Shown here piece after piece: positions 1,088 through 64,000 of a DNA stretch of 64,000 nucleotides (positions are counted from its first letter, which is position 1; each line of letters begins with the position of its first letter). The stretch comes from Sphagnum magellanicum. Lineage: Eukaryota > Streptophyta > Sphagnopsida > Sphagnales > Sphagnaceae. Below the pieces are notes generated by a model. That model had not been told where the DNA came from and ran no database searches. It saw nothing but the letters and a program-made list of their open reading frames with translations. The position numbers and the translations under genes are program-made. The DNA lies in the NCBI GenBank assembly GCA_021904315.1, contig CM038926.1, forward strand, positions 4,388,390 through 4,452,389, read 5' to 3'.

Positions 1088-4000
1088 CTAGTTGGATTGA
1101 GATTTTGGCTTTGAATGTAATTTACTTGTTTGAATGTGGCTCATAGTTTTGAATAAAACATCAAAACGTGTATATTGATCTACCATATGTTTTCCGTAGT
1201 CATGAAAAGCTCTGAAGTCTGAATTTGTTTTGTTGCATGTGTTTTTTAAGTATTTGTGAACTTTGGATTCAATGTTTCTTGTGTGTATGCAACAATCAAA
1301 CTTGCCTTTCTCCTCTGAGGACCACATGTTACTATCTAATAGCGGATCAATACTCGTGCTTTTCTTCAAGCATTGTGACTCCTTAGATGGAAGTGGATCC
1401 TTGTTGTTTTTAGTTAGAGGTAACTCCCTTTGCACTTTTATTGTTCCATGTGCAAGGGTTTCTTCATTCCATTTTTTTTGTAGTTGTGGTATCAAATTCT
1501 TTTGGGGGCATGCACATTTGCTTTTCCTTAGGACCCTTCCAATAGTTTTTCTTGCTTTCAATTTCTTGTTAGTCAACCCAATGTCCCTCACAAATGTCAA
1601 TTTCTCTTTTAGTTGTGGAGGAATATTATCATTATATGGTTTTGTTACAAACCACCTTTTTGGCTCAATGTCGACATGTAGTCCTTTTACTTGTTTCCTC
1701 AAAGTGGAACATATGTGTATGTGGGACATTGTGTCATCGTCTAGTAGTGAGGGGTGACATTGTTGATCAAGAAGCTTGCTTGGAACCTCATTCCAAGCAT
1801 CGATAGTACATGCACTACACCACAAACTTTTATCTCCAAAACCATTGTACTTGTAGAGATTGTGGTTTATTTTTTCAAGACCAACATTGAACCTTTTCAA
1901 AATTTGAAATTTACACCTATTGATTTTTTCAACATCAGGATTGCCTTTGTTACTTTTGTAGGACTTATCAATATTTCCCCCATTTGTTTGGGAAACGTGG
2001 TTAATGCCCATGTCATGACATACTACCATTTTGTCTTTCTCCTCTTGTAACTTTTGGATGGTCTTGTTCATACTACAAATGAATGTATTAAAAAAATTCT
2101 TCACCATGTTGTCACCATTGCTAGCCCAACAATATTTTTTGTTCTTCCAAATCTCAATGCTACATGAAGATGTTGGATCAAAGTGGCAATTGTTGGGACC
2201 AAAGACCTTCATTGAATTTGGAATAAGACAATGACTACTACCACCACAATACCTTTTATGATGATTTTTGTCTTCTCCATCTATGGGCATAGTGTGATTT
2301 ATCTTGGTTTCTTCTTTTATGTGTTCACCAGTTGTTTTGCGTTGAACAAATCCTTTTAGGTAGGTTTCAAATTTTATTTTTCTTTGTTTAAAAGGATAAT
2401 ACAATAACATGCCATTATCTTTTTGGCAATGGCTTTCCACATTTATGAATGGACTACCAACATATGGCTTCTTAGTTGAATGTGATTTGTTCATTTCTAG
2501 TTGTAACACCTCAACATCATCATGCAAAAGAGGTGGTAGCATCGATCCACAAGATAAGATTACATTTGATATAATAGTAGTAGACCCACAGTTCACATTC
2601 AAATCTTCCAATTCACACATAAATGCCTTTTCGAAGATTTCAACATTGTGTAAGTTTCTTGAAACATCCAAATCTTTGGGTTTAAAATTTATGTTTTGCA
2701 TTGTCTTGGATTGGATGTTGACACAACTACATGAGTTTCGAATTGAGTCTTGTATATTAACACCATTTGAAAAAAAACTTATACTTGTGCTCAAATGTTC
2801 ATGTCGTTCCATCATGTCATCTTCCAAATTTGACCTAGACATGATGAAACATTGCATAAAATTGCTTTTACCTTGTTCTATTGCATTTTGCCAAGTGTTA
2901 TTTGAAAAAAAATGTTGATCCCTATTCTTGTTACTACAAGATTCATCATTTTGTCCATCTTTTGAAGGCTTCCAACAAATGTCGAGCCTTATCCCAATCT
3001 CCATGGCTACATGTGTATTCATATCAAGGAATTTCTCACTTTCTAAATCCCTTTTCAATCTCTTAGTAGCATCGAACATCTTTTGTTTCATTTTTTCCTC
3101 TTGATAAGGGGTTTGAATTAGGAACAAATAATTTAATTTCTTGGTGAGCCCCACAACATTAATACTAAGGTTTGATAGTGGCAAAATGTTCACATAAGTT
3201 GCATTTGGAATACATTTTCCCCCTTTTTTACATATAATCTCCACCTCTTCACAAACACCTTCATCACTCAAAACATCTTTTGATTTCTTGGCACCAAACA
3301 TGGATTTCAAGAACTTTGAAATTAAAAAAAAAATCACAATTTCTAGTGGAAGAACTTCAATATCATCATAACTTAATAATTTGTTTCCCAAACAACATCT
3401 TCTAGCCTTGAAGTACAATTCATTTCCACAAAATTTGTTTATAGGAAATTTGAGTCCATTATTAGTTACAATATTTTGAAAAATAAATGGAAAATATGTT
3501 TTAGAACAAGATACATCGAGAAATATTCCAATGTCACCATTTTGTTCATCTTCACTTTGTTGGTCTTGTAATGAACATGTTGACATACCAATAATACTTC
3601 CCAAGCCAATTTCAACATCTTTCAAGGTTATTATCCTTCTTGTATTATTTCCATCTTTGGAATTTACAAATCCCATGTCATTATCATCTTTGAAAACATC
3701 CAACCCATGGTTAATATTGATTGTGTCACTACAATATTTGTTCCTTTTTCTGGGTGGTCTACTATGCAAAAATTGCAGCAAACCCATTGATCCTAAAGGC
3801 TTGCAACATTGTTCAACTCCATCATTTGATAATTGGTTGCAAGTCACCTTTTTCTTTGCCATAAGGAATTTCATAACCACCTTAGGGACCTTGTCACAAA
3901 ACTTTAAACGATTAGCTTCCATCACAATAAAGTTACCATCTTCATCCTCCTCAAAGTTTATATCATTATGATTTCTACTAGTTCCATGATGTTGCAACAA

Positions 4001-4333
4001 TTTCTTGCTATGTGTGCACCACCACCACCACCACCTTTTTCTCTTGCCATCTCTTTGGAACTTATGCCAACAAGAAACCTTAAATTCCTTGAGACTGTCG
4101 GCATCATCCTCAACCTTCAATTCCTTGAAACAATCATAATCACCATCAACCTTTACTTTTTTACAACTCTCAAAATTATCAATAACATTTAATTCCTTTA
4201 AACTTCCATGACTAATGTAATCATTTTCCTTAAATTCCTTGAAACTTTTGCATTCGAGATCAACCTCTTGTGGATTCACAATTTTCTTGACAAATTGCCA
4301 CTTGCAACTCATCATCTTTGTGCAAAACCCCAT
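1088..4333 (-). CDS. very long uninterrupted ORF, unknown protein (about 1081 aa)
   Basis: One frame stays open for more than 1080 codons in AT-rich DNA where other frames close within about 170, so it was selected for coding until recently. The first ATG (4333) gives a product starting MGFCTKMMSCKWQ; the frame is also open a few codons upstream through a GTG. Residues about 25-85 hold imperfect 11-14 residue repeats of the type S-L-K-E-F/L-K-V followed by acidic residues. A run of five Trp follows, encoded by a CCA/TGG microsatellite. The rest is rich in Lys, Asn, Cys, Ser and His, with a basic C-terminal third (for example KARKTIGRVLRKSK). I see no signal peptide, membrane span, reverse transcriptase, protease or transposase motif. 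It could be a host orphan gene or an accessory ORF of a mobile element. I do not recognise the family. Confidence 0.5.
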   Translation of the reverse strand: MGFCTKMMSCKWQFVKKIVNPQEVDLECKSFKEFKENDYISHGSLKELNVIDNFESCKKVKVDGDYDCFKELKVEDDADSLKEFKVSCWHKFQRDGKRKRWWWWWCTHSKKLLQHHGTSRNHNDINFEEDEDGNFIVMEANRLKFCDKVPKVVMKFLMAKKKVTCNQLSNDGVEQCCKPLGSMGLLQFLHSRPPRKRNKYCSDTININHGLDVFKDDNDMGFVNSKDGNNTRRIITLKDVEIGLGSIIGMSTCSLQDQQSEDEQNGDIGIFLDVSCSKTYFPFIFQNIVTNNGLKFPINKFCGNELYFKARRCCLGNKLLSYDDIEVLPLEIVIFFLISKFLKSMFGAKKSKDVLSDEGVCEEVEIICKKGGKCIPNATYVNILPLSNLSINVVGLTKKLNYLFLIQTPYQEEKMKQKMFDATKRLKRDLESEKFLDMNTHVAMEIGIRLDICWKPSKDGQNDESCSNKNRDQHFFSNNTWQNAIEQGKSNFMQCFIMSRSNLEDDMMERHEHLSTSISFFSNGVNIQDSIRNSCSCVNIQSKTMQNINFKPKDLDVSRNLHNVEIFEKAFMCELEDLNVNCGSTTIISNVILSCGSMLPPLLHDDVEVLQLEMNKSHSTKKPYVGSPFINVESHCQKDNGMLLYYPFKQRKIKFETYLKGFVQRKTTGEHIKEETKINHTMPIDGEDKNHHKRYCGGSSHCLIPNSMKVFGPNNCHFDPTSSCSIEIWKNKKYCWASNGDNMVKNFFNTFICSMNKTIQKLQEEKDKMVVCHDMGINHVSQTNGGNIDKSYKSNKGNPDVEKINRCKFQILKRFNVGLEKINHNLYKYNGFGDKSLWCSACTIDAWNEVPSKLLDQQCHPSLLDDDTMSHIHICSTLRKQVKGLHVDIEPKRWFVTKPYNDNIPPQLKEKLTFVRDIGLTNKKLKARKTIGRVLRKSKCACPQKNLIPQLQKKWNEETLAHGTIKVQRELPLTKNNKDPLPSKESQCLKKSTSIDPLLDSNMWSSEEKGKFDCCIHTRNIESKVHKYLKNTCNKTNSDFRAFHDYGKHMVDQYTRFDVLFKTMSHIQTSKLHSKPKSQSN
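4016..4036. repeat. CAC/TGG trinucleotide microsatellite
   Basis: Seven consecutive CAC units on the plus strand. Read on the minus strand they give the Trp run inside the giant ORF, so the length of this tract changes protein length in whole codons. Confidence 0.85.
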
Positions 4334-4345
4334 GGATGTCACCAC

Positions 4346-5035
4346 CCTTCCTCTGCCCCCCTTTGATTCTTCACAATCTCAAATCAACAATATTCAAAAC
4401 CCATTGTTTGCAATCTTTAACTCAATCAATATACCCAAGGAACAAATTAATGTTATTCCTTTGCAAAATGATGTTTGGCTTTTATGTCCCCCCCACCCCT
4501 CTCCTTCTTCCCTACAATTATTATTCTCCTTCACGTTTCCATGTTCTTCACCAACATGCAACAACATGGGCTCTTATTTTTATTCAAATATATGTTTCCC
4601 TCTTTTCATTTGGTTTCACAATTAAGTTGGGAGGTTGGTAACAATTTAGACTAGGTAAAGGAACCTTGTCTTTTTTTCATTTAAGGGAAATATTGCAACC
4701 TATTTCACCTTCTTTTCTTTTGAAGTGAAAGGTGGTGCGCATTGAAGCTAAGAGTTATGCATTATTATAAGATCAATAATCCCAACCAAATCACGAGTAA
4801 TTATATTTATTTTATCGAATGGTTTGTTGGATTTATCCAAATATAAGGTTTCAAGTGGCCCATATATATGTATGTATGCATGTAATTTTTTAAAAATTCA
4901 AAAAATTAGTATTTCAATACTTAAATTCCAATGACAATGCTTCATTGGAATTGGTTTATGTAGGATGGGTATTTTGGTGATCATAACTACGAGAGAATTT
5001 TAGAGTCATTCCAAATTATAATTCATCATGGATCA
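4346..5035. other. upstream flank of the giant ORF, no gene
   Basis: AT-rich DNA with C-rich runs near 4350 and 4490. It would hold the promoter and 5' leader of the minus-strand ORF if that ORF is expressed. I cannot point to a convincing TATA box or splice site. Confidence 0.3.
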
Positions 5036-14205: not shown

Positions 14206-14210
14206 CATTT

Positions 14211-14281
14211 GGCGGGAATAGGATTTGAACCTACAACATTCAGATTATGAACATGACGAGTTACCAATTACTCTATCCCGC
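14211..14281 (-). pseudogene. trnfM: mitochondrial initiator tRNA-Met (CAU), decayed copy
   Basis: The minus strand folds as a tRNA. A GCGGGA acceptor arm pairs with TCCCGC. The D-arm is GAGTAATTGGTAACTC, the anticodon loop is TTCATAA with anticodon CAT, and the T-arm is GTAGGTTCAAATCCTAT. The pattern follows plant mitochondrial tRNA-fMet rather than nuclear tRNA-Met. The anticodon stem (TCATG against TCTGA) has a mismatch and a wobble pair, and no CCA is encoded. With the neighbouring 5S remnant this is a relic of organelle DNA, not a working nuclear tRNA gene. Confidence 0.8.
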
Positions 14282-14927
14282 GAGCATAATAGAGTTTATT
14301 CAACTGCAAATTTTTTTTTTTTTGCACAACAATTATCTGCCCGGCCCTAAGTATAGCCTTTTTTTATAAGTATCGTATTTTATTGCCAAATTTCTCTATG
14401 GTAATTCATCTCTCGACTAAAGTCTTGCATAGCAATACTTTGGGACTTAGCCCCCAAAGCAAGAACCATCGGGCAATTGTTTGTTTATCATTGCTTTGTG
14501 TAACTTTATTTAACAAGCAAAACGTAAAGCTAACTAAGCAAGTCCTTTGGCCTGCCTGAAAGACAGTTGCAAAGCTGCTTTCTTCGAAGATATTTGCAAA
14601 TATTTCATAGCCCAGTTCATCATCATGCATGGTCAATAAAATCTTTTTTAGCGTCATCAATCGGCACACGCCTGCTTTTTTTCTTTGTTAGGCTTACTAC
14701 ATTTTCTCGCTTTGCATTTGATTTTAGGAAGCCACATCCCCCCCCCCCCGTACTACCCCCCATTTCGTGCCCTCTATAAGCTTCGTCAAAGTCACTTTAT
14801 GGATTTTATTTATTGGAGCCTTCACTTGCTTTGGCGCCCGCAGAAAGGGCCCACCCAATCAATAAAATTTTACGGCAAAATTTTTTTTTACTATGCACAT
14901 TGGAACTTTAAATTAGATTAAGTACGT

Positions 14928-44194: not shown

Positions 44195-47100
44195 TTACCC
44201 TGTTGACCAATCTGAGTCATAGCTGTTGGCCTGACTTTCAATCCTAACAAGCAGCTTCTCTTGGACACTGGAAGCAATAATTCTCTTGCGTTTTGTTTCT
44301 GACCCATTTGTGACTTCAAACTTGTTACATTGGTTCTTGATGGAAAGAGCCTCAGAGATTCTCATATCCTGCAGTGAATATGGATGATGGCCTGGTGCAC
44401 TGTCTGGTCTCCCTAATCCATTGACAAGAAAAGAATGTTATCAACAATATAAGTAACATATGTCGATTGTGGTAATGATGGATTCATTGCAAAGTTACTG
44501 TTTAAAATACATGTCCAATGCTTTGGTGAAATTTGTTTGCATGACATGAATTATTTAGCTTATGATAGCTAAAGGGACAGATCTAACTTGATTGTAACCT
44601 GGGCATGCTGGGTGGGAGTTTCTGGCCCTCCCCTCCTCTTGTTGCTTGTAGGATGGGCTCACCTTGCAGTTCAATTCTCCCTGGCAGGAAGCAAGAAAGG
44701 GAGAAATTTCTGCAGGAGACTGTATGCTTGTTGACCTGCAATGGCAGCTGATTCTGGTTATTACACAGTTGCTACAATTGAATTGGAGAAAAATTCACTT
44801 CCATGGAAATGATTCACATTACTCAAAAGGACAGGAGAAATGAAAGGAAATTGCAGATCCTGCTCACAAATTAGAAATAGACTCAGACCAGCTTGGATAG
44901 GAATTTAACATGTCCTGCTACTAGCACATTATGGCTGGTGCAAGAACATCTAACCTGCAAGTCTGCTGGTATTTCAGCTTGGCCACTTCTTCACTCCGCT
45001 TCTTCCTGGATTTGATCTCAGTGCTCACACAATTGAACATGAAAAGGAATTCTCGCATAGTCTTAAACAGATCAGTCTGTCTCTCCTCCTTCATCGTTTC
45101 CCCAAAATAGGCAGCCAGGTCTTTAAGCTTTCCAAGAGCTGAATTTGCAAGGCTGTTCAGATTTGCTATCTCTGTTTTGGTGTTTTCAGCAAATGGAACC
45201 ATGAGATCAAGGAAATGCCTGTCATATTTTGGTTCTGAGTTGTTTATCAAAGAGCTGGTTACTTCAATTTCTCTGTTCACTAGTTCTACACCCCGCTCAA
45301 GCTCATTCAGACTTGAGTGAATCCGATCCAGGCTCAAATTTGCTGCAGACTTCACTTCTTTCATTTCTTGAGCCAGTTTTCCAACCTGCACCAGTAAGAG
45401 TCATAATGTGCTAATTCATAATAGAAAGGATAAAATATCTATGCACCAAGCATCACTGCTGCAGCAACAGGGGAGTAATCATAATTATCTTGTACCTGGT
45501 CATCACTTTTGAGCAACTCCGCAACCACAAAGTGCAACAGAGTTGTTCTCTTGTTCCTGCCCTTAACATCCATTAGTTTCAGCAAGGTGTCAAGCTTGAA
45601 CCCACTTGCTGACCCACGGCATGAGCCTCCATTCAAATGGTTTCCAACTGCCAGCACCATCTCCAGTATTCTGACAAGGGTACTGCTTGACATCAGCTGG
45701 TCACATGCCCGCTCCAGCAGCTTCAGGTCTTGTTGTGTCTGTCCAGCAGTGGAACAGAGAAGTCAAGCTGTATTTCATCTTTGTTCTAAGCTCTCTTTTC
45801 ATGATTCTGATGAAATGAAAAAAAATCCACCTCCAATCTCTGATGTTGCAGTCACATCAGGGGAAAACATTTGTGATGCTTTGGTTTACAGACACACCTG
45901 TTCCAATGTTGCACCATACTGGAGCTTAAATAAGAAAACCTTTATCCATTTCTCCTGCCGAGGGATGCTTAGAAGTTCCAGATAGTACCTGACAGACACA
46001 AATTCACAGGAAATGTCCCTTAAAAGCTCTTGATCATCACTGGCAGTTTCTTCTTCTTCACAAAAGACCAGAGTCTGAGTTACATTCACCTGCTATATCA
46101 CAAGTCTATTCTGAATAACTACTATAGACAATTGTAAGAACTTGAAAGATGTTAATTTGAGGATTGTACACAACAATTAATGAGAAGCATACTTCTCAAC
46201 CTCAGCTAGCACTGAGGGGTCTCCTCGATAGCACTGGAGAAGTGTAATATCCTCTTCACTTGGGAGAGTGTTGTGCATTACATTTAGCACCTCCAGTGTC
46301 AATACACTTTGGTCAATTTCACGAAGCGCTTGGCATAGCTCTAGTAAGGGTATACGTAAGCTTCGTAGCTGTATACTGATATTGTGAGCTCGTTTTAGCT
46401 CTAATATATGCATGCCTTGTGGCCTCTTCAATCTCAATCCCCTCTGATTGCAAAGGACACATTAGCACACCAAGCACAGTTCAATGCAAGATGACACTAT
46501 TTAATCAGATGATGAATAGACTGTGGGAACTGTCTCATAAAAGAAATGGCAACAACACAAAGCACAATGGCAAAGAAGTGGCCCAGGATAAGCTTCTTGC
46601 TGCAGTAAGTCTAGAAATAAGGATCATCCAGGTCAACCTTGGTAGGTGTGTTCTTTGGAGTTGCATCTGTGAGAGCAAAGAGGGACTCGAGCTCTTGAAG
46701 ATCCATCTGCACTCCTTCCAATGCTGTGTTTGACCATACAGTTTTATCTGTTGAGCTGGTGGTGATCTTGTCCCATACAAGTTGCTTCAACTTCAGCTTC
46801 CTCTGGTTTCCAATGTTACCTGTGTTACTCATACCTTTCTTTATTACAACAGGAGGAGGTGATAATCCGCCAATTCTATGAGTGGGTGGAGGTGGAGGCG
46901 GAGGCGGAGGTGAACATAGGGATTGTGGAGGAGCATGAGGTAGGGGAGGGGGAGGTCTTGGAGGAGGAGGGGGTGGAGGTGGAGGAGGTGGAGGAGGGGG
47001 AGGGGGAGGAGCTGGGTTAGGAGGACCAGGTTGGGGCCTTCCTGGATTGGGAGGAAAGCATTGACTATGTGCAAGCAGCTCTGGAGATTGGGGAAAAAGT

Positions 47101-50100
47101 GGGGACGTGTGATTGGAGCCCGGACCCTCTGCAATCACTTCCTTTTGCAAGGTTATAACATCACCACGTGAAGACCTGCTTGTACCACAAGCTGAAAATG
47201 CATTCAGACATAGTGGTGGTGAAGGCTTTTCTTCCATCTGGTCTGGATACTCTCTTTGTATTTGGCACAAGTTGATGGGTGAAGTCAGACACCCTGAGAG
47301 TTTAGGAGCTTCCAAAGGCCTTGTTGAATAGCTTGGGCTTGTCTCCTGCATATGTGTCCCATCAAAGAGGTTCAAATGGTGTTGAGCTAATGATGTAGGG
47401 GCTACTGCATCAGCATCATGCAAAGACAGACTTTTATTTGCACATTGCTGGAGTGATACAAGAGTTTCCATCCCTTGCAAATTTGAAATCTTCTGAGGAG
47501 CTATCTGTTCATTTTTGGGTTTCATCAAGGAGATGCCATTTCTGCTGCTTCCATTGCTGTGACCATTCTCATGACATATTCTCCTTTGCCATGCAGTGTA
47601 GGCAGTTGACTTGCAGTGAGGGAGATGATTACCAAATTGACAGCTTCTATCCAAATGCTTTTGACTTGACTGGAAAGATCCAGTGCAGCAACTATTCCCT
47701 GACTTTTGCTGAGGGTCTCCAGCAGTAAACCTGTTGTTTGTCTTCTCAAGCGCTGTTTCTGGAGTCAGATGTGAAGTAGTTCTCTCCTCCAGATCTTCTA
47801 AGCTCTGTTTTGGAAACTGTGGTAGATAATACTTCCAATCTTTAATACAAGCCATCCCCAAGAAGCTGCAAATGAGTCCATATTTTGGTGCACTGTACCA
47901 AGATGTTGACTGACAACATGAAGCATTTGGATGAGACCTCCCATTCACATGCATTGAGTTCAAATGTGGTGGTTGCGTCTCTTCAAGACGGTCGTCCTTC
48001 CAGTGATTGTGAGAATCTGCACAGTCTCTAGCAGATTCCAGATTCTTGAAGGAGCTACCATTAGACATGCTTGGAGGAGCTGAAGTGGGGCAGTCCCAAG
48101 TATTGTTCCTACCCAAAATAGTCACGCAGTTGTATTCCTGGCTGTTGTTTGGAAGATTGCACAATTTGTGAGAACCTATCTTGTGAAACAAAGGTTTTGC
48201 AGCCTTGTTCATCTCAACTGTAGAGACTCTTGGCTGTGGCATAGTAAATCCTTCTCTAATGCAATTTGCCACATCACCAGTCTGTTCACAATCAATTGGC
48301 AGGGAGGCAAATCTTGCTAGGATGGCAAGTTTGAAATCTCGCCCTTGCTGCAGGGTCTTCTCTATAAGATCATCCTGAGCAGAGGGTATCCCGTTTTCAC
48401 TAAGACATTTCATATCGTTGTAGCTTGCAACCATGTCCATAGTTTCAAGATGAGAATCAGTTCTCTTGGAACACATCATCCATTGGTCAATGATCAATTG
48501 TAGTCTATGAAAGAAGCTCTTTGAAGTATGCTCTGGCTTGCATTTGTATCTTGACTTCCATCGCAGCACTGTTCTGTTAGGAACCTCAAATCTTCTAGCC
48601 TGCCTATTCCTGTTTCCACTAGAAACATGGGAAGGAACTTCACAATCATCATATTGCATTCCCTGTTGATCAGCTGCATTTCCACTTTGGAACCATTTGT
48701 GAGAGTTGGATTTCTGAGAAACCTCAGATAATGATTGATACTGGTTACAATTGCATAAATGTTGGAGCTCATCACCTGCAAATACTAGAGTCCTCAAATC
48801 ATCATGAATCTTGCATCCACCTTTTCCTTGGCCCAATAAAATTGGAGTTATTCTCAAGTCATCATCAAATCGGTGCCACCAGTACTCTGGCACATAGCAG
48901 TTGCTCTCTGGATCTTGCAGAGCACTGTTTTTGCTGATAGGCATCTGGAGTGGCTCAGATAAATTCCCTTGTGTTATCAAGTTCAAGTTTTCGAAAACTG
49001 GTTGCATGGTCCTTTTGGCATGTTTTGTGTTCCTGCTTGTTAATGGGATTGTCTGGGGATTTAGCAACCTCTCAAACACCGAGGTCCTGGAGTCTGGACT
49101 CAAGGGATGTACAGAAAGAACCACAAGGGAGTCTTCACTCTGCAGCCTCTTTCTGAAGTTCTGTTGACTGCATCAAGCACATAAATTTAGCTTACAATTG
49201 CATAACTACAGTTACCTTGAAGGTCAAGATATGCCAACCTACTAGTCTGTCTTCAAAAAGAGAATGTGCCAAGAATTGGGCAATCTGAAGTTAAGCACTG
49301 AAAAGTCAAGAGTGAAGCAGAACCTTTTTTCCTGTTGCGGAATGGGACTATCAGCGATTCCCAGAGGTTGAGAAGTATCACTTGCAACTTCAATAACCTT
49401 GGAAAATGATGACAGGATCCCAGCTGGTTGCATCTCTCTGCTGCTCTCTTGAAAACCTGTCTGCCATAACAGAGAGCTCACTTGCACAAGTTACTGCCAC
49501 CTTCTATAATTTGTGTGCATTCAAGATTGATCAGCCAGACAGTAATACATAGTCAGAGGTCATTGAGCATTCTGATAATCACTTCATCTTTAGATTTAGC
49601 AATGGATTCTATTTTTTGGTTCTCTGAGCAATCAACATGTCAAACTTTCAATGTTCCCTTTCCTCCTCACTATTCTCTGTCTAAGATTTCATTTTTGGAA
49701 GGAGAAAGATCTCTAGCAGTCTGTATCACTGTGACTGGAGACAGTATGCAGAGCATGTACCATACCAGTGGGATTATCTGGTGACATTGCATGTGTTTCC
49801 TGCGCACTAGCAAGGGACTGGCATGAAATGTGGCCATAGCAGAAAAGATAATTCCACTCATTGATCATTGTGGCCAGAAACACACTTGCAACTTGAACAT
49901 TTGTGAAGTGCCTGTGGAGCACAGCAGCCATTTCTGTTGACTACATTGCTGTATATGATGGTTAAAGACCTGTCAGCAGATCTGGTACCTCATTCTCACA
50001 GATATAATAACTTGGACACCATAAATTAACTGTGACAAGTCCCAAATGTTCAGAGAGATGTAACTGCTGCTTTTTTCCACTTGGAGAAATGTGCAGCTCA

Positions 50101-51709
50101 CTTCTATCATTCAAGGTGTACAGAGACCATAGACAACAATGAACCTACAGATGACAGGATCAAATGTATGCATAGTTTCTCTCAAAAAACAGAATTGAAG
50201 CTTATTTTTAGTAGATGACAAGTACATGAGATGATTCAGCTGGTCTTGCCTTGCATTACCTGTGAACTATTGCAGCATCATCAGATCTCCGTAACAGGAG
50301 AGGCCCAAAAGTTGTTTCCATTCTCTTTGCATTGGTCCCCTTGTTGGAGGAGCTCACTTGGAGAAGCAGGAAGGCAATGCTCCTTAGAAGTGCATAGTTT
50401 GAGGATGGAAGGCGATTCAACAGTAGACGGAATACATACAAGCGGGAATACAAATTTGGAATTGCTGTACATGGGAAAAAGAAAACGCATCAGTGAGGCT
50501 GAATCTTAGGTTTGCAAACTGCAATCAAAACTGTCCAAAAAAGTATTCCAGAGAAAATGTAACAGTATCAATTTGGACCACAAGGATAGTACAAGCATAT
50601 TCATTGAATGCAAAGTTGCAAATGCTACAAGGACCTGCTGCTGCAATGAATGCATCATGAAGTGAGCTGGTCAACAGTGAGCCATTGAGCTCCTTCAGGT
50701 AGAGAAGCACCCCTGCTGCAACAGCATGTGGATTCAAATGCTTCAGCACCAAATCTGTACTCTCTGCAGACAAAACAATCTGGGAATTACTCTTTGTTCC
50801 CAAATCTCTAAATCCTTTCCTGCCACACGTACCCAGAACAAAATGCCAATATATACAAATTGAAACAAGCTTATTTTTGCATGACACCTTCCACATTCAA
50901 AGAAATACCCAACATCATCTTGTTACTATGATCTGGCTGGCACATTAAGCTGTCTCATAGCCAGTGCAGGTATCAGGGCAAAAAGATGCACCGATGCTGA
51001 TGCTTTGTTTTCTAAGACACTGAAGACGAGAGTGAATATCATGTTTTAGAGAATTATAAGTACCCAAACAGAGTTTGAAGAGCATGTGCTTGATTCTCTT
51101 TTTCCCACTTTGATTTCTAAGTTTAAAACCCCTCCAGCACAAGCAGACACATACCATATTTGAAAGGAAAAATGTGAAAAACTCCACAAAGTACTGCCAT
51201 TGTTATGACATGAAAGAAGAAGAATTTGCCTTTGGAATGAACATGAGTAAACCATTTGCGCACAGCAAGAACCTCTTCCAGTGGAGTCAGTACCAGAAAC
51301 AAACCTTCAACATTGGTAGCTGGGGCCATGACCACACACAACTATCAGCTTGACTGTGGATACCATTTGGACATGTTAAGCACTCCCAGAAGTAGGCTTA
51401 AATTAGACCTTAAAAAGAAGAATATCCAGAAATGAATCTTGATCACAAAATCGAGCCTCAAGGGTAGATTTCTAGTCCCAAGAAGCTCACAGGGACATGG
51501 AATTAAGTATCCCAATATGCACAAATTTTGGTAGAAAATGGAAAGAAGATGATCAAGGGTCATTAACCAGTTGCAATCAAGTATGCTGTTGCTCGTTGCA
51601 AACCAATTAAGCTTGTTGCAGTGAAGTCAGCAGCTATTGCAGCCATGCTTGCGACCCTTGCTCTTGACATCTTCTGGCGCTTGCGTATTCCATGTATTTT
51701 CTTGAACAT
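44195..51709 (-). CDS. formin with N-terminal RhoGAP-like domain (class III type), 13 exons, about 1560 aa
   Basis: Exons (minus): 51709-51568, 51319-51230, 50763-50635, 50464-50260, 49911-49766, 49456-49324, 49167-46638, 46443-46193, 45988-45898, 45738-45496, 45385-44955, 44735-44662, 44412-44195. Phases agree at every junction and total 4683 nt. All introns are GT-AG except the second (GC-AG). Residues about 25-235 form a RhoGAP-like fold, 235-985 a polar linker (mostly one 2.5-kb exon), 989-1051 the proline-rich FH1, and 1070-1455 the FH2. FH1 binds profilin-actin and FH2 nucleates and caps actin filaments, so the protein should act on cortical or cytoplasmic actin, perhaps directed by Rop/Rho GTPases. 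There is no signal peptide, membrane span or PTEN-like region, which excludes classes I and II. The chosen start is MFKKIHG. An alternative first exon (52763-52733, MLETSSHGAA) would join in frame and add 16 residues. Confidence 0.88.
44985..46803 (-). other. FH2 domain coding exons
   Basis: Starts at KLKLKQLVWDKI, the FH2 opening (the usual form is KLKPLHWDKV). It continues through LELKRAHNISIQLRSLRIP, LPSEEDITLLQCY, YYLELLSIPRQEKWIKVF, the diagnostic AVGNHLNGGSCRGSASGFKL, DTLLKLMDVKGRNKRTTLLH and the helical LKDLAAYFGE end. Length is about 385 residues, normal for FH2. The Ile-equivalent and Lys actin-contact regions are present by position; I see no disruption. Confidence 0.93.
46860..47046 (-). 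other. FH1 proline-rich segment
   Basis: It encodes about 60 residues that are mostly Pro. One unbroken run exceeds fifteen Pro, and a second run of nine comes just before THRIGG. On the plus strand it is a GGAGGN-rich tract. It lies immediately before the FH2 and is the expected profilin-binding track. Such tracts vary in length, and assembly or sequencing slips are possible here. Confidence 0.9.
49766..51709 (-). other. RhoGAP-like domain coding exons
   Basis: Five exons translate to segments matching RhoGAP order: LQRATAYLIATG, ATNVEGLFLVLTPLEEVLAVR (arginine-finger loop), NPHAVAAGVLLYLKEL, SLLTSSLHDAFIAAA, YVFRLLLNRLPSSNYALLRS, TTFGPLLLR and VFLATMINEWNYLF. In active RhoGAPs the loop reads G-I-F-R-V-S-G. 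Here it is G-L-F-L-V-L-T, so the catalytic arginine position (about residue 56) is Leu. A GAP without its arginine finger would probably bind Rho-type GTPases without speeding hydrolysis; that is inference. Other core residues, including the Lys of YLKEL, are kept. Confidence 0.8.
50764..51229 (-). other. GC-AG intron in the RhoGAP region
   Basis: The exon ends TCCAAAG and the intron begins GCAAAT. The acceptor is TCTGCAG followed by AGAGTACAG. Phase 1 is preserved and the joined residues (HSK-ESTDLVLKHL) fit the RhoGAP alignment with no gap. Using instead the nearby GT at about 51170 (AAATATG/GTATGTG) would add about 20 Phe-rich residues that do not fit the domain. Confidence 0.6.
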
Positions 51710-51726
51710 TTTGTTAGAATGCCTGG

Positions 51727-52732
51727 CTGCAATTCACACATAATCAAAACAGGCTGACACAATAATCTTCATTGCATTCTTTACACATCTAGCCTGTCAG
51801 TAGATTGCGTAACTCCTAGATAACCTCTTTTCCTTGCTACATTCGTGAAGAATTCTGCACATTGCTTTCACCACCAGACTATACTTCATGAAGCAGATCA
51901 TTCTTGTGGATCCAAATCCGTTGAGCAGAATCGATTTGCAAACCAATAAATTCTGATTTCTTGAAACAGAATTGTCACTATTGCACGAAGAAATTGCGGG
52001 ATCCAGTTCATGAGACAAACAGCAGCTTGCAAGAAGCGAAATGTAAGAACAGCCTCTCAAGAAACAATTACGTGTGCGTTTTGCACTAGATCTGTGCTAT
52101 TCCAGCAGCAGCACATTAGAGGAATCAATCGCAATTTCATTCATGACTTTTGCGATCTACGTGTAATCTCTTCGACGTTTGATCTTATAATGCTGGAAGG
52201 GAGAATTGAATGCAGACTGCGACATTTGATCATACGATGTTGCAAGGGAGAATTGAATGCAGACTGCGACATTTGATCATATGATGTTGCAAGGGAGAAT
52301 TGAATGCAGACTGCGACATTTTATCATATGATGTTGCAAGGGAGGATTGAATGCAGACTGAAAATGCCGAAGTTCGCTAGTCTGTGGTGATCGCCGTCAT
52401 GCGCTTCTTGCAAAGATCCACCTGTAATTGCAAATTGTACGTTTGCTTCCGAGAATTCGCTGCGCGACACCCGGCAGTTCTGGTTCCATTGGTGCATCTT
52501 GTCCATTGGATTCCAACAGATCTTTCAAAAGAGCACACCAGATGAGGTGCTTGCAAGAGATCGCGAAATCACGATGCAAATGACATTGTCAGCGATGTGA
52601 TTGGATCACGCAATTTTGAATCCCCATTCCACGGAGTAGCGGAAAAATCCAACCAGCTCACGGTTGTTGCAATCAGACTGCCCCCAAAAAACGGATAGCT
52701 TTTAGGTTCCGATTCTGAACCGTTTCTACTAC
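51727..52732 (-). other. formin 5' region, possible first intron
   Basis: Minus-strand frames at 51797-52060 and 52569-52763 are open but do not join the next exon in phase, except through the small 52763-52733 exon. The interval is richer in G+C and CpG towards 52.4-53.0 kb, as expected near a promoter. It contains the 47-bp tandem array described separately. Confidence 0.4.
52181..52360. repeat. 47-bp tandem repeat, about four copies
   Basis: Units start at 52181, 52228, 52275 and 52322 with GATCATATGATGTTGCAAGG and GAGAATTGAATGCAGACTGC. Units 2 and 3 are almost identical, which points to recent expansion. It lies between the formin coding start and the divergent AK6 fragment, so it is in likely 5' regulatory or intronic DNA. 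Confidence 0.92.
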
Positions 52733-52997: not shown

Positions 52998-53189
52998 ATG
53001 ACAGACGAAAGCAGGAAGAGGGCGAGGTCTAATATCCTGGTCGCGGGGACACCCGGCACCAAGAAGACGTCCACGTGCTCGTTGCTGGCAAGCGCCACTG
53101 CCCTGCGCCACATCAACGTTGGGGAGTTAGTGAAGGAGAAGTCATTCCACTATGGCTGGGACGCGGAGCTCGAATGTTACATATGCTAA
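52998..53189 (+). pseudogene. adenylate kinase 6 (AK6/hCINAP-type) 5' fragment
   Basis: The frame MTDESRKRARSNILVAGTPG, then the rest of the P-loop, TCSLLASATALRHINVGELV, KEKSFHYGWDAELEC, is the N-terminal quarter of the nuclear adenylate kinase/ATPase AK6, an essential ribosome-assembly factor. After ELECYI the match stops and a stop codon follows two codons later. The remaining three quarters (about 110 residues) are not found in the next kilobase. The P-loop reads GTPGTKKTS where the family has GTPGTGKTT, so the glycine before the catalytic Lys is replaced. No good GT donor follows, so truncation is likelier than a first exon. It lies head to head with the formin, about 1.3 kb from its start, or 0.24 kb from the alternative one. 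Confidence 0.75.
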
Positions 53190-54310
53190 GATTTGTTGTT
53201 CCCTTCTATCTTCCTGCGTCTCCGAAACCAGAGGCTTTTTCATTTTGGCAGGCGATTCTTTCAAAAGCGAGAATCCCAAAGCAGGATGTCCAGCTCAGAG
53301 CAAAAATGGACATAGTAAGAGAGTCCGGAGAGGGAAGAAATTTCCATCCAGCGTATCTGTGAGCAGCATGCTTATGTGAAGGTGCATCATCTCTGTGGAG
53401 ACTGATAGCATAGAAAGCAAAGCTGTTCTGAAAAAATCCAGGATGAACATGGGAGAGTGCTATTAGTGTTTTCCTTTTGCAGGGTTTGTATGCAGAATCA
53501 TTCAGTGAGAGCAGGATTTGCTTTGGAGGAGGCACCATCTCTTTTAGTGTCTGGAATCACAGAGAAAAGCAAACCCAGTCTGAGGAACTTTCAGCAAGAG
53601 CATGTATGACATATTTCTGTTTTTGTGGGATTTGTATCCATTCCTACAGTGAAGAAGAGCTTTGGAGGCTGCAATTGTAGATTGTTTTTTCATGTCTCTC
53701 TCACAATTCAGAGCATGTTAATGGTTTCCCATTGACTGGTCTGGACTTCAGTTGCAATCGCAGACTTGCGGGTGGACCTTTCAAATCATGATTCAAAACA
53801 TGAGCACCAATGTTGCAATTCTCAGTGGATTGATGAGGCCATGGAACACCACTTGTGCATAATCCTGAGACTAGGTACTCCCCCTCTCTTTATTGGGCCC
53901 TGCACCCACAGGGACAGGGACTATCGCATTAGATCCAACTTTTGTAAGTTTTACATTATTAGAACCGGTTTTTTTGGTGAAAGCGTTTAGACTGTTAGGT
54001 TGGAAAGGATTTTTTTGGTGTTCAAAGTGTGGACACAGTAGGTAGATGTACAACATATTATCTATTGGCAAGGCCAGCGTGTATGTGGATGCCTTGTTTT
54101 GTAAAGAGAAACATACATACACTAGAATTGCAGTGTTTCTATAGAGTGTCACGGCCAACTCCATGACTGTTATCCAGATATTTCATTTGCACTCTGCGCT
54201 GCTGCCCACTACCAGTGACGATATACTATTTAAATTTTTTCTTATGTTTTCATATGATTTTCAATAATTTATCATTATTTATGTTAATGTCAAACGTAAT
54301 TTAAATCAAT
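53190..54310. other. no gene recognised
   Basis: Moderately GC-rich to 53.7 kb, then AT-rich. Two loosely similar lines (GGGTTTGTATGCAGAATCATTCAGTG near 53485 and GGGATTTGTATCCATTCCTACAGTG near 53625, with a shared GCTTTGGAGG downstream) hint at an old duplication. No AK6 continuation is visible. Confidence 0.3.
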
Positions 54311-55568: not shown

Positions 55569-56542
55569 TGTCGTAACCCTAGCCTTGGGCTCACTCCTAA
55601 GACAAAAGGGGTTACAAGGTTACGAACCAAAAAGAAGCTCGGGAGTCAAGGCAAAGAGGTCGTAAGGGTGCAGCCCAAAAAAAAGCCTGGGAGTCACATC
55701 ACATATTCCCGGGAATGTAAGAAAAGTGCGAAGGAGTATGAGGGAGTGAACCCTCACACTTCCAAGGCAACTTCCACTTTGGGAGATGGAGTCCCAGTGG
55801 ACTCCCAAAACTTTAGAAAGTAATTTCAGGGGTCAAAACTCAATGGCTTGTGGCATTCTTTATATCATTGGAAAGATCTTGAAACGTAAATTTTTTAAAT
55901 GGGCTCATATTGCTCATTTGGACAACTAAAACACAAGTTATGGCCAAAAGAAAGGCCGGGAGTAAAACGGCCAATTTGACTCCCGACTAAAAGAAGTCAG
56001 GAATCGACCCGATTTACTTAGCTGCATAAGGTGTGCAACATACCGTTGGAAAGCTCTCAACGAGAGCTACAACTTTTCTTTAGATTGCATCACAATCCGA
56101 GGTCTACTCGCAAAGTTATGGGGCTCCAAAGTCGTGGGAATCCCATCTAGCGCGATTTTGGGACTCCCATTCGGGAGTCCCGAAAGAGAAAAACCATTTG
56201 GATGTCGGCTCTGTGGCCAGCCACAGAGTATACTATAAGGGGGAAGGTGATGGTTTCCCCCAAGTCCGGGCCGTGGTGAATTTAATGTGTCCGTGTTGCC
56301 CATGGTTCGTCCTAGCACCAAAGGTGCTCTAACTATGCACTAACCACTTTGTGTGGGTTATGTGCAGGCTCGTGTGAGTGAGTGAAGCTTGTCAACTCGT
56401 CCTAGTCCCATCCCGGAGCTCCAACACGCCCCTCTACCCCTCAAAGTGTTATGAGCTAGGGAGCGTGCCCAGACTCCTCCCTCTTCCGTTGTGTTCTACT
56501 TGGACTCACATTTGAATCCTTCAAGGAGTCGAGAGTGCATCA
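55569..56542 (+). mobile_element. family A LTR (974 bp), no target duplication seen
   Basis: It starts TGTCGTAACCCTAGCC and ends GAGAGTGCATCA. It is full-length, of the same subfamily as the copy at 58249 (both have the CACATATTCCCGGGAATGTA segment) and in opposite orientation to it. The flanks TGCTA and ACAGC do not match, so either flank was rearranged or this copy came from recombination between elements. The TATA-like TATACTATAAGG is near 56227. Confidence 0.88.
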
Positions 56543-58248: not shown

Positions 58249-59222
58249 TGACGCACTCCCAACTCCTTGAAGGACTCAAATGTGAGTCCAAGTAGAAGAC
58301 AACAAAAAAGGGAAAAGTTGGGGCACGCTCTCTAGCTCATAACACTTTGAGGGGTAGAAGGGCGTGTTGGAGCTCCAAGATGCGACTAAGAAGAGTTAAC
58401 AAGCTTCATTCACTCACACGGGCCTGCACACAACCCACGCAAAGTGGTTAGTGCATAGTTGGAGCACCTTTGGTACTAGGACGAGCCACGAGCAACACGG
58501 ACACATTAGACTCACCATGGCCCGAACTTGGGGGAAACCACCACCCTTCCCCCTTATAGTATACTCTGTGGCTGGCCACAAAGCCTACATCCAAATGGTT
58601 TTTCTCTCTTAGGACTCCTGAGTGGGAGTCCCAAAATCGTGCTAGATGGGATTCCCGCAACTTTAGAGCCCCATAACTTTGCGAACAAACCTCGGATTGT
58701 GATGCAGTCTAAAGCAAAGTTGTAGCTCTCGTCAAGAGCTTTCCAACGATATGTTGTACACCCTCTGCAGCTAAGTAAATCAGGTCGATTCCTGACGTCT
58801 TCTAATCGGGAGTCAAATTGGCCGTTTTACTCCCGACCCTTCTTTTGGCTATAATTTGCGTTTTAATTGTCCAGATGAGCAATACGAGCCCATTTTAGAC
58901 ATCTACGTTTCAAGAGCTTTCAAATGATGTAAAAAACGCTACAAGCCATTAAGTTTTGACCCCTAACATTGCTCTCTAAAGTTTCAGGAGTCCACTGGGA
59001 CTCCATCTCCCAAAATGGGAGATGCCTTGGGAATGTGAAGGTTCACTCCTTCATACTCCCTCGCACTTTTTTTACATTCCCGGGAATATGTGATGTGACT
59101 CTTGGGCTTCTTCTTGGCCCACACCTTTGCGACCTCTTTGCCTTGACTCCTGGGCTTCCTCTTAGCTCACAACCTTATAACCCCTTTGCCTTGGTTGCGA
59201 ACCCAAAGCTAGGGTTACGACA
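58249..59222 (-). mobile_element. solo LTR, family A, inserted in gypsy gag
   Basis: The minus strand starts TGTCGTAACCCTAGC and ends GTGCGTCA. The flanks GGAGA and AGAGA match at four of five positions, giving a near-intact target duplication. Coding-like gag sequence of the host element lies on both sides. It is closely similar to the 55569 copy but inverted. Confidence 0.9.
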
Positions 59223-61691: not shown

Positions 61692-63541
61692 GTGTCACCC
61701 AGATCCCCAATCCAACTTATGCCACAACTATCGCCACCGCCTCTCAAACTACACTACAAGCTGCCATTACACATCATGGGACTATGCCCAATAATCCAGA
61801 TCTAGTACCTACTTCAGTAAACCTTTCTCCTTAATAACTCATTATTGTTACTGCAAACATTCCTCCCACCATCGATGCACCAGCTTTTGCTAATCCAGTG
61901 GGGGAATTCTTTCGAGTTCTTGAGCTGGAATTTCCGGTTAAGAGTTTTTTTTTTAATTTGTAGCTCGCCACCTTCTCTCGGCAGAAGGATGAAACCCTCA
62001 AAATGCTTTACAGGAGGCTTTTCAAGCTTAAAGAGGATACTCAAAGCATCATAGACCTAAAAGTTGCCCATCGATATCTTCATTCGTTAAAAAGTACTCC
62101 AACACTCCATGTGTAGGTTTTGCAACGGGTTTTTGCAGAATTTGGAGATTCATACACTTTGGTAAATGTGTACAACATTTTTAAAAAGCTGAAACCAGCT
62201 CATGCACACTATGAAGCCAATACTATGAGCCTCCATCACATTCAAGGCCTTAGGTTCCACCAGCTGAACCAACCAAATCATCACATTTTTCTTTAAAGGT
62301 TAAAGCAGTGCACTCGGTTACATCCATCCTACCTTCTTATAACTACTATGGCAATCCTGCCAACAAAGCTAATGAATGCAACATTCCTTTCGAAGATCTC
62401 TTTTGTGATTATTATGGGAAAAAAGGACATCAGGAAGTTGTTTGTTTTGTCAAGTTCCAGGAACGGAACCAATTCCAATTATCACGGGCAAATTTATCAG
62501 CATCTTCCGTTGGCCCTCAACCAAAAGCCAAGGCACCTCAACCTTCCACTTAGGTTTTCCCCACCAAGGGTAATTCCAATAAGAATGCTAAGAAGAAATA
62601 ACACAACGCTAACAAGAGGGAGGTGCTTCCAGCCCATGCCGCTCAAATTCAAACTCTACAAAATGAACTCGAATCATTGAGGGCCCAATTTGCTAATCTA
62701 AAAGGCAAATATTCCCACCAACTAGTCATGCCCAACCTGTACAAGGTTTAGGATCACGAAAAGGACCTCCTAGGTCGTTCTATGGCCTCTCACATGATGC
62801 CATGGTTAGGGAATATGTTCTTTCCAGTGCACACAATTCTAGTCTCACACTAGAATTTACCTCTCTTTTTTGCCCTTCCTACTTTGTGGCATAGGAGGTT
62901 ATTGTGGCACCCAGAGTTTCTACCACTAGGCAGGTAATTCAAATTGATGGACTCGCATATAATTCAAATCCTATTACTAGGGCTGGAAGAGCTCGAGTAA
63001 TCATGCCACAATATTTTTGTCCTCTCAACATGGAAGAAGAATGTACCTTGTTGGCGAAGGGGAAGGAGACTATTACACCACAAGCTGCTAGGGCATCAAA
63101 TTCTCGTGTCCCAAGAGTACATGTACATTAAAAAAACACACAATTTTCCATTAATCAACTTATGGAATGCCAACTTCAAATGCATGAAGTGGCACAAAAG
63201 CTTGTGAGTATATCGTTGTTTAGTTTTCAAGATTTGAAGCTAAACATCAAGGACATAATTGCAGTACTAAAAGATACTTTGAACACCACATCAAGTCCTT
63301 TACTAATCCTTGATCCACATGTTGTAGGGGTCCCATCCAACACCTTGGAGAGACATTTGATTAGCCCACGTGTTGTAAATGGCATTCGTAATTTGGTCAT
63401 TAAATCTAACATGGCTAAACTAATGGGTTCGCCTACTTCTGATTTTACATTCACATATCAAAAAGGACACCTCATTTGTGAATTTGTTACTCAACAAAGG
63501 TGTTGTGGATAGTCATTATCTCCACAAAGTCTTTCACTCAT

Positions 63542-63811
63542 TTCCAAAGGTGGTGCCTAGTGAAAAAATTTCCATTGCCACCGGAATTGCCATTGTCAAC
63601 AATATTGAGTCAACAATCCAGGTGGGAGGACATATACCTAGAATGGTATTTCTTGATGCAGGTGCCCAACCACTCATTTCCAAAGGTGGTGCCTAATGAA
63701 AGAATTTCCATCGCCACCGAAGTTGCCATTGTCAACAATATTGAGTCAACAATCCAAGTGGGAGGACATATACCTATAATGGTATTTCTTGATACAGGTG
63801 CCCAACTAGTG
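63542..63811 (+). repeat. 135-bp direct repeat in the gypsy protease region
   Basis: 63542-63676 and 63677-63811 are near-identical, differing at fewer than ten positions. Both contain the GTGGGAGGACATATACCTA line and the aspartic protease motif region. The low divergence shows the duplication is recent compared with the general decay of the element. Confidence 0.9.
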
Positions 63812-64000
63812 ATTCTTAAAGCTCAATTCGCCAAGAAGATGGGCATGCTCGACTCCAAACTACGAAAATTTATGAAGCAAATTCACACTGCTAATGGGAG
63901 CATAGAGGAGGTACTTGGGGAGAGCTCGGATTTTATTGCACTTAACTTCAATGAAGGTACAAATCAGGAGTTTTACCTACAGGTCAGATGTTTAATCACC

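Follow-up and report, generated by a model that had tools for sequence, protein, structure and literature searches.

The window analyzed here, a 64,000-nucleotide stretch of contig CM038926.1 (positions 4,388,390 to 4,452,389), includes a gene on the minus strand, running from position 51709 to position 44195, whose predicted product combines a RhoGAP-type domain with the FH1 and FH2 regions of formins. Taken as a whole, its features are best explained by a class III plant formin in which a Rop/Rho-binding pseudo-GAP (GAP, GTPase-activating protein) head precedes FH1 and FH2, and this is probably what the gene encodes.

Organization of the gene and its product

An exon-by-exon rebuild yielded 13 exons that are joined in frame without any internal stop. 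The same number of in-frame exons had been proposed in a first-pass annotation of this DNA, whose end points, 44195 and 51709, are identical to those of the rebuilt model. In the preferred model the coding sequence is 4,746 nucleotides including the stop codon and specifies 1,581 amino acids; an alternative model that uses a GT donor for exon 2 has 4,821 nucleotides and 1,606 amino acids. The introns are 110 to 466 bases long and 11 of the 12 are of the GT-AG type; the exception is intron 2, which is GC-AG in the preferred model but becomes GT-AG under the alternative. The exons are as follows.

51568..51709, minus strand: exon 1 (preferred), start codon and helix A of the RhoGAP domain, based on the score of the exon 1-2 join
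51230..51319, minus strand: exon 2, arginine-finger region of the RhoGAP domain, EGLFLV (Arg to Leu), ending at a GC donor or alternatively at a GT donor at 51155
50635..50763, minus strand: exon 3, RhoGAP, conserved Lys to Leu, based on the Pfam match and PDB alignment
50260..50464, minus strand: exon 4, RhoGAP, conserved Asn to Arg, based on the Pfam match and PDB alignment
49766..49911, minus strand: exon 5, last RhoGAP helix and start of the linker, based on the in-frame join and on the alignment with 2ee4, followed to its end
49324..49456, minus strand: exon 6, linker, based on the in-frame join
46638..49167, minus strand: exon 7, linker, FH1 and first part of FH2, an 843-codon open frame
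46193..46443, minus strand: exon 8, FH2, with the residue aligned with INF2 Ile643
45898..45988, minus strand: exon 9, FH2
45496..45738, minus strand: exon 10, FH2, with the residue aligned with INF2 Lys792
44955..45385, minus strand: exon 11, FH2, C-terminal part
44599..44735, minus strand: exon 12, C-terminal tail, based on the in-frame join only
44195..44412, minus strand: exon 13, C-terminal tail and stop codon, based on the in-frame join only

In the spliced protein the RhoGAP-type domain is followed by a linker of about 750 residues (approximately residues 239-985), a proline-rich FH1 with runs of 17 and 9 prolines, and a complete FH2, which is the layout within one polypeptide that the first-pass annotation had described. 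A Pfam scan of the whole 1,581-residue protein identified RhoGAP (PF00620; E = 5e-16, 59.3 bits against a cut-off of 24.5, profile positions 4-147/148) and FH2 (PF02181; E = 1.9e-89, 300.9 bits against a cut-off of 34.8, profile positions 6-371/372). The RhoGAP match, passing the Pfam cut-off, answers the search of the N-terminal region for PF00620 that had been suggested as a check. Beyond these two domains the scan returned two families, with E values of 0.086 and 0.24, both below cut-off, and the linker matched no family at E up to 1. Exons 3-4 alone match RhoGAP with an E value of 4.1e-15 (profile 48-147). When FH2 was scanned in four pieces, three gave values between 4e-15 and 2.2e-28 and the remaining one, the start of FH2 within the long exon 7, gave 2.2e-05, below the Pfam cut-off; the piece extending from FH2 to the end of the protein scored 304.4 bits over profile positions 6-371/372.

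A PDB search with the head region found 27 sequences at E up to 10, of which 17 have E values below 0.001; the matches are named RhoGAP proteins and the top one is beta2-chimaerin (1.8e-7). The FH2 part matched 19 sequences, the best being INF2 (1.3e-38), with mDia1 at 1.5e-36. No plant formin is so named among these 19; the entry 9ya0, 'Formin 1', shows no organism. One viral scan found no relative. At the positions aligned with INF2 Ile643 and Lys792 (numbered along the 1,249-residue chain of 9azp), two residues with a role in actin contact, the protein also has Ile and Lys, and the FH2 domain is apparently intact.

The RhoGAP and FH2 regions are separated by about 3 kb of DNA, in-frame Met codons in exon 7 permit a separate start, and the fusion is predicted from genomic sequence, all of which would suit two adjoining genes, one made up of exons 1-5 and encoding a short RhoGAP-like protein, the other encoding a formin that starts inside exon 7. 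This arrangement is unlikely, as the phases of exons 5, 6 and 7 are compatible, no stop interrupts their joins, and the order of the domains is that known for class III formins (PMC2386819).

The N-terminal half of the RhoGAP domain

The first two exons were assessed by adding them stepwise to exons 3-5 and by a join test. In the former, the Pfam RhoGAP score rose from 54.8 bits for exons 3-5 (profile 48-147) to 58.8 bits with exon 2 (18-147) and 63.3 bits with exon 1 (4-147/148). In the latter, an ungapped profile of ten sequences was run over the GT-AG joins (GT donors only) of the region 50764-52300. The preferred join of exons 1 and 2 ranked second with a score of 18.0, while 60 dinucleotide shuffles had a mean of 3.2 and a maximum of 12.4. 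The top join has the same exon 2 with a different first exon, ending at a donor at 51979, and an acceptor 22 bases earlier. All eight of the top joins share exon 2. These results support that exon and leave two candidates for exon 1. In addition, a donor giving TH|S led to a RhoGAP score of 63.9 bits, with splice scores of 4.03 for the donor and 2.18 for the acceptor. Overall, the support for exons 1-2 is moderate, and the uncertainty concerns exon 1 and the point where exon 2 ends.

Several observations weigh against the preferred model. The 78-residue piece encoded by exons 1-2 has no RhoGAP match in Pfam when scanned alone, and a three-sequence profile of the N-terminal half ranks the spliced peptide 15th of 3,610 targets (2,000 of them shuffles) with 2.5 bits. 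The rival exon 1 with its donor at 51979 has slightly higher domain scores (19.06 in the join test and 65.3 bits in Pfam). When splice sites are scored with a matrix derived from the ten introns not in dispute, the preferred exon 2 acceptor scores 2.88, below all ten training acceptors (6.24-12.74), and the GT donor of exon 2 outscores the GC donor (4.73 versus 1.84). Finally, the exon joins are predictions from the genome sequence.

The rival exon 1 was nevertheless placed second because its splice scores are poorer (-0.7 for the donor and 1.61 for the acceptor, versus 5.47 and 2.88 for the preferred exon 1). The GT donor lies 75 bases beyond the GC donor and adds 25 mostly hydrophobic residues, with which the RhoGAP score falls to 56.1 bits over profile positions 47-147 and the N-terminal half is no longer reached. 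The GT-donor form was placed second because it breaks the Pfam match, which the GC donor keeps whole. Three-frame Pfam scans of 50.5-56.5 kb on the minus strand, the strand of the gene (X at stops), revealed no other N-terminal half of a RhoGAP domain; the single weak RhoGAP stretch there (0.066, profile 45-84) lies in exon 3.

One non-standard donor and one weak acceptor, together with the dispersed and tandem repeats that surround the gene and a fragment of a P-loop kinase that adjoins it, are what might be expected of a decaying gene whose head has no function. That the gene is a pseudogene is, however, extremely improbable, since its 4.7 kb of joined coding sequence is free of stops and frameshifts and both the RhoGAP and FH2 profiles are covered nearly completely.

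Residues of the head and a possible function

The residues of the RhoGAP-type domain were compared using five printed PDB alignments (1xa6, 2ee4, 1f7c, 2ee5 and 5irc, of which 2ee4 and 2ee5 represent the same protein). The arginine finger expected of an active RhoGAP domain was not found at its position: the formin has Leu (EGLFLV), an aliphatic and not a small residue, where all four alignments that reach the position have Arg. This call depends on exon 2, which is backed by the join test and the stepwise Pfam scores, not by the three-sequence profile. The conserved Lys downstream of the finger is Leu in the formin and Lys in all five alignments, and the Asn of the motif NLxxxFGP is Arg in the formin and Asn in all five. 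A MAFFT alignment agrees with the PDB alignments on these changes.

With the arginine finger and both other conserved GAP positions altered, a domain that binds the GTPase but lacks GAP activity appears more likely than an active GAP, and the head is probably a pseudo-GAP. The first-pass annotation had proposed that the gene links Rop/Rho signalling directly to actin nucleation, a proposal that the replaced catalytic residues qualify. That the domain is instead an active GAP, turning Rop off next to new filaments by a mechanism other than the arginine finger, seems quite improbable in view of the replacement at all three of the Arg, Lys and Asn positions. In its favor, the domain retains its fold along almost the entire Pfam profile, the sequence of exons 1-2 is a prediction, and hydrolysis not dependent on the finger is allowed in PMC2386819 by analogy with Rap1GAP. 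The same paper proposed GTPase binding with a probable loss of GAP activity for class III formins, leaving another hydrolysis mechanism possible.

A mechanism can be envisaged in which the pseudo-GAP head would bind GTP-loaded Rop/Rho at the membrane without speeding hydrolysis, an interaction that would recruit the formin to the membrane or release it there. The proline runs of FH1 could then feed profilin-actin, and the FH2 dimer would nucleate and elongate actin filaments. In plants, this RhoGAP-type head may in this way be the counterpart of the GBD/FH3 region of animal and fungal formins. The animal proteins INF2 and mDia1, which are the best PDB matches, also have an FH2 domain, but the protein described here has a RhoGAP-type head and no GBD/FH3 Pfam match at E up to 1. 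A GAP-like domain that is kept, likely as a binding module, is also found in IQGAP, p85 and ARAP2, whose GAP-related domains are inactive (PMC2386819); these proteins have other partners and in IQGAP the GAP-related domain is C-terminal.

Relationship to class III formins

The 2008 description of class III plant formins drew on two prasinophyte algae, one moss and one lycophyte (PMC2386819); the class is reported from algae, mosses and lycophytes and as absent from angiosperms (PMC2386819, PMC11194305). Its members, Phypa7 of Physcomitrella, Selmo2a/b of Selaginella, and Ostta1 and Ostlu1 of Ostreococcus, likewise have an N-terminal RhoGAP-related domain and FH2, and the loss of the arginine finger and the change of Lys to Leu are common to them (PMC2386819). 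Both changes are present here, the published proteins being compared by their description; the finger position is Leu here and Ser in the moss protein Phypa7. As the architecture and both residue signatures recur, the gene was assigned to class III, in agreement with the first-pass annotation. The class itself has been known since 2008, and the gene is a further example of it.

Class I and class II formins also have FH1 and FH2. Their distinguishing features were not found: there is no PTEN-like Pfam match, the hallmark of class II, at E up to 1 over the 1,581 residues, and a hydropathy scan, the only method applied to the signal peptide and membrane span that precede FH1 in class I, revealed neither in the preferred model. 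The highest mean hydropathy over 19 residues is 1.55 in the preferred model; in the GT-donor alternative a value of 2.15 is reached inside the RhoGAP region. A class I or II formin that gained a RhoGAP-like head independently, outside the class III clade, is very unlikely given this absence of a class II head and, in the preferred model, of a class I membrane span, and given that both class III signatures are found in the RhoGAP domain. It would fit an FH2 core about equally distant from classes I and II, as suggested by a comparison with unverified FH2 stretches, to be taken as a lead only (39% identity and 132 bits for class I, 34% and 133 for class II, and, more distant, 33% and 100 for INF2), and the class III placement was made from architecture and residues.

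The gene had also been taken to help place the organism outside flowering plants. This is in line with the reports that angiosperms lack class III, although the class occurs in prasinophyte algae as well (PMC2386819), which the first-pass annotation omitted. Among the matches listed from the open-licence literature no report of a class III formin from ferns or gymnosperms was found, and the accessible part of PMC6888108 contains nothing on the class. It is conceivable, but doubtful, that the gene belongs to a plant lineage with no class III formin documented in these papers, for example a fern or a gymnosperm, and that changes at three interface positions have left its RhoGAP head as a sensor of Rop-GTP, taking the place of the GBD switch of animal and fungal formins. 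The function of this clade is almost unexplored (PMC11194305); the authors of that 2024 review know of no functional studies apart from a single account of For3 being expressed at a low level. A gene that is well delimited and bears a clear pseudo-GAP signature provides material for testing direct binding between Rop and a plant formin, and may help to place the loss of class III on the plant tree.

Surroundings of the gene

Four copies of a 47-base tandem repeat (52173-52360) are located about 460 bases upstream of the preferred start codon. About 1.3 kb from the start of the formin gene and in divergent orientation is the beginning of a P-loop kinase (53001-53190, plus strand; AAA_18, 1.9e-6, 28.8 bits, just below cut-off). 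This fragment resembles adenylate kinase 6 (AK6), and its motif GTPGTKKT deviates at a position where Gly is usual; the plus strand of 53.0-57.2 kb, read in all three frames, does not show the remainder of the kinase. A dispersed repeat is present as an inverted pair (55605-56542 and 58249-59187, 88% alike), with more diverged relatives at approximately 10.3-10.9, 12.7-13.2, 21.6-22.3 and 24.4-25.1 kb, which fits the earlier description of the DNA as repeat-rich. The repeats, like the tRNA described below, pointed to no particular lineage. At the end of the window a retroelement-type aspartic protease (63482-64000, plus strand; gag-asp_proteas, 3.7e-8) includes a 136-base tandem duplication (63535-63806) inside its frame.

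On the other side of the gene, two minus-strand frames of 29.7-44.2 kb showed no Pfam family; the rest of the window was scanned in part. An open frame of 1,096 residues (1091-4378, minus strand) matched no Pfam family at E up to 1 and gave a single NCBIfam match below cut-off (0.073). A tRNA-Met (CAT) is found at 14209-14283 on the minus strand and looks like a short insertion of an organelle-derived initiator tRNA.

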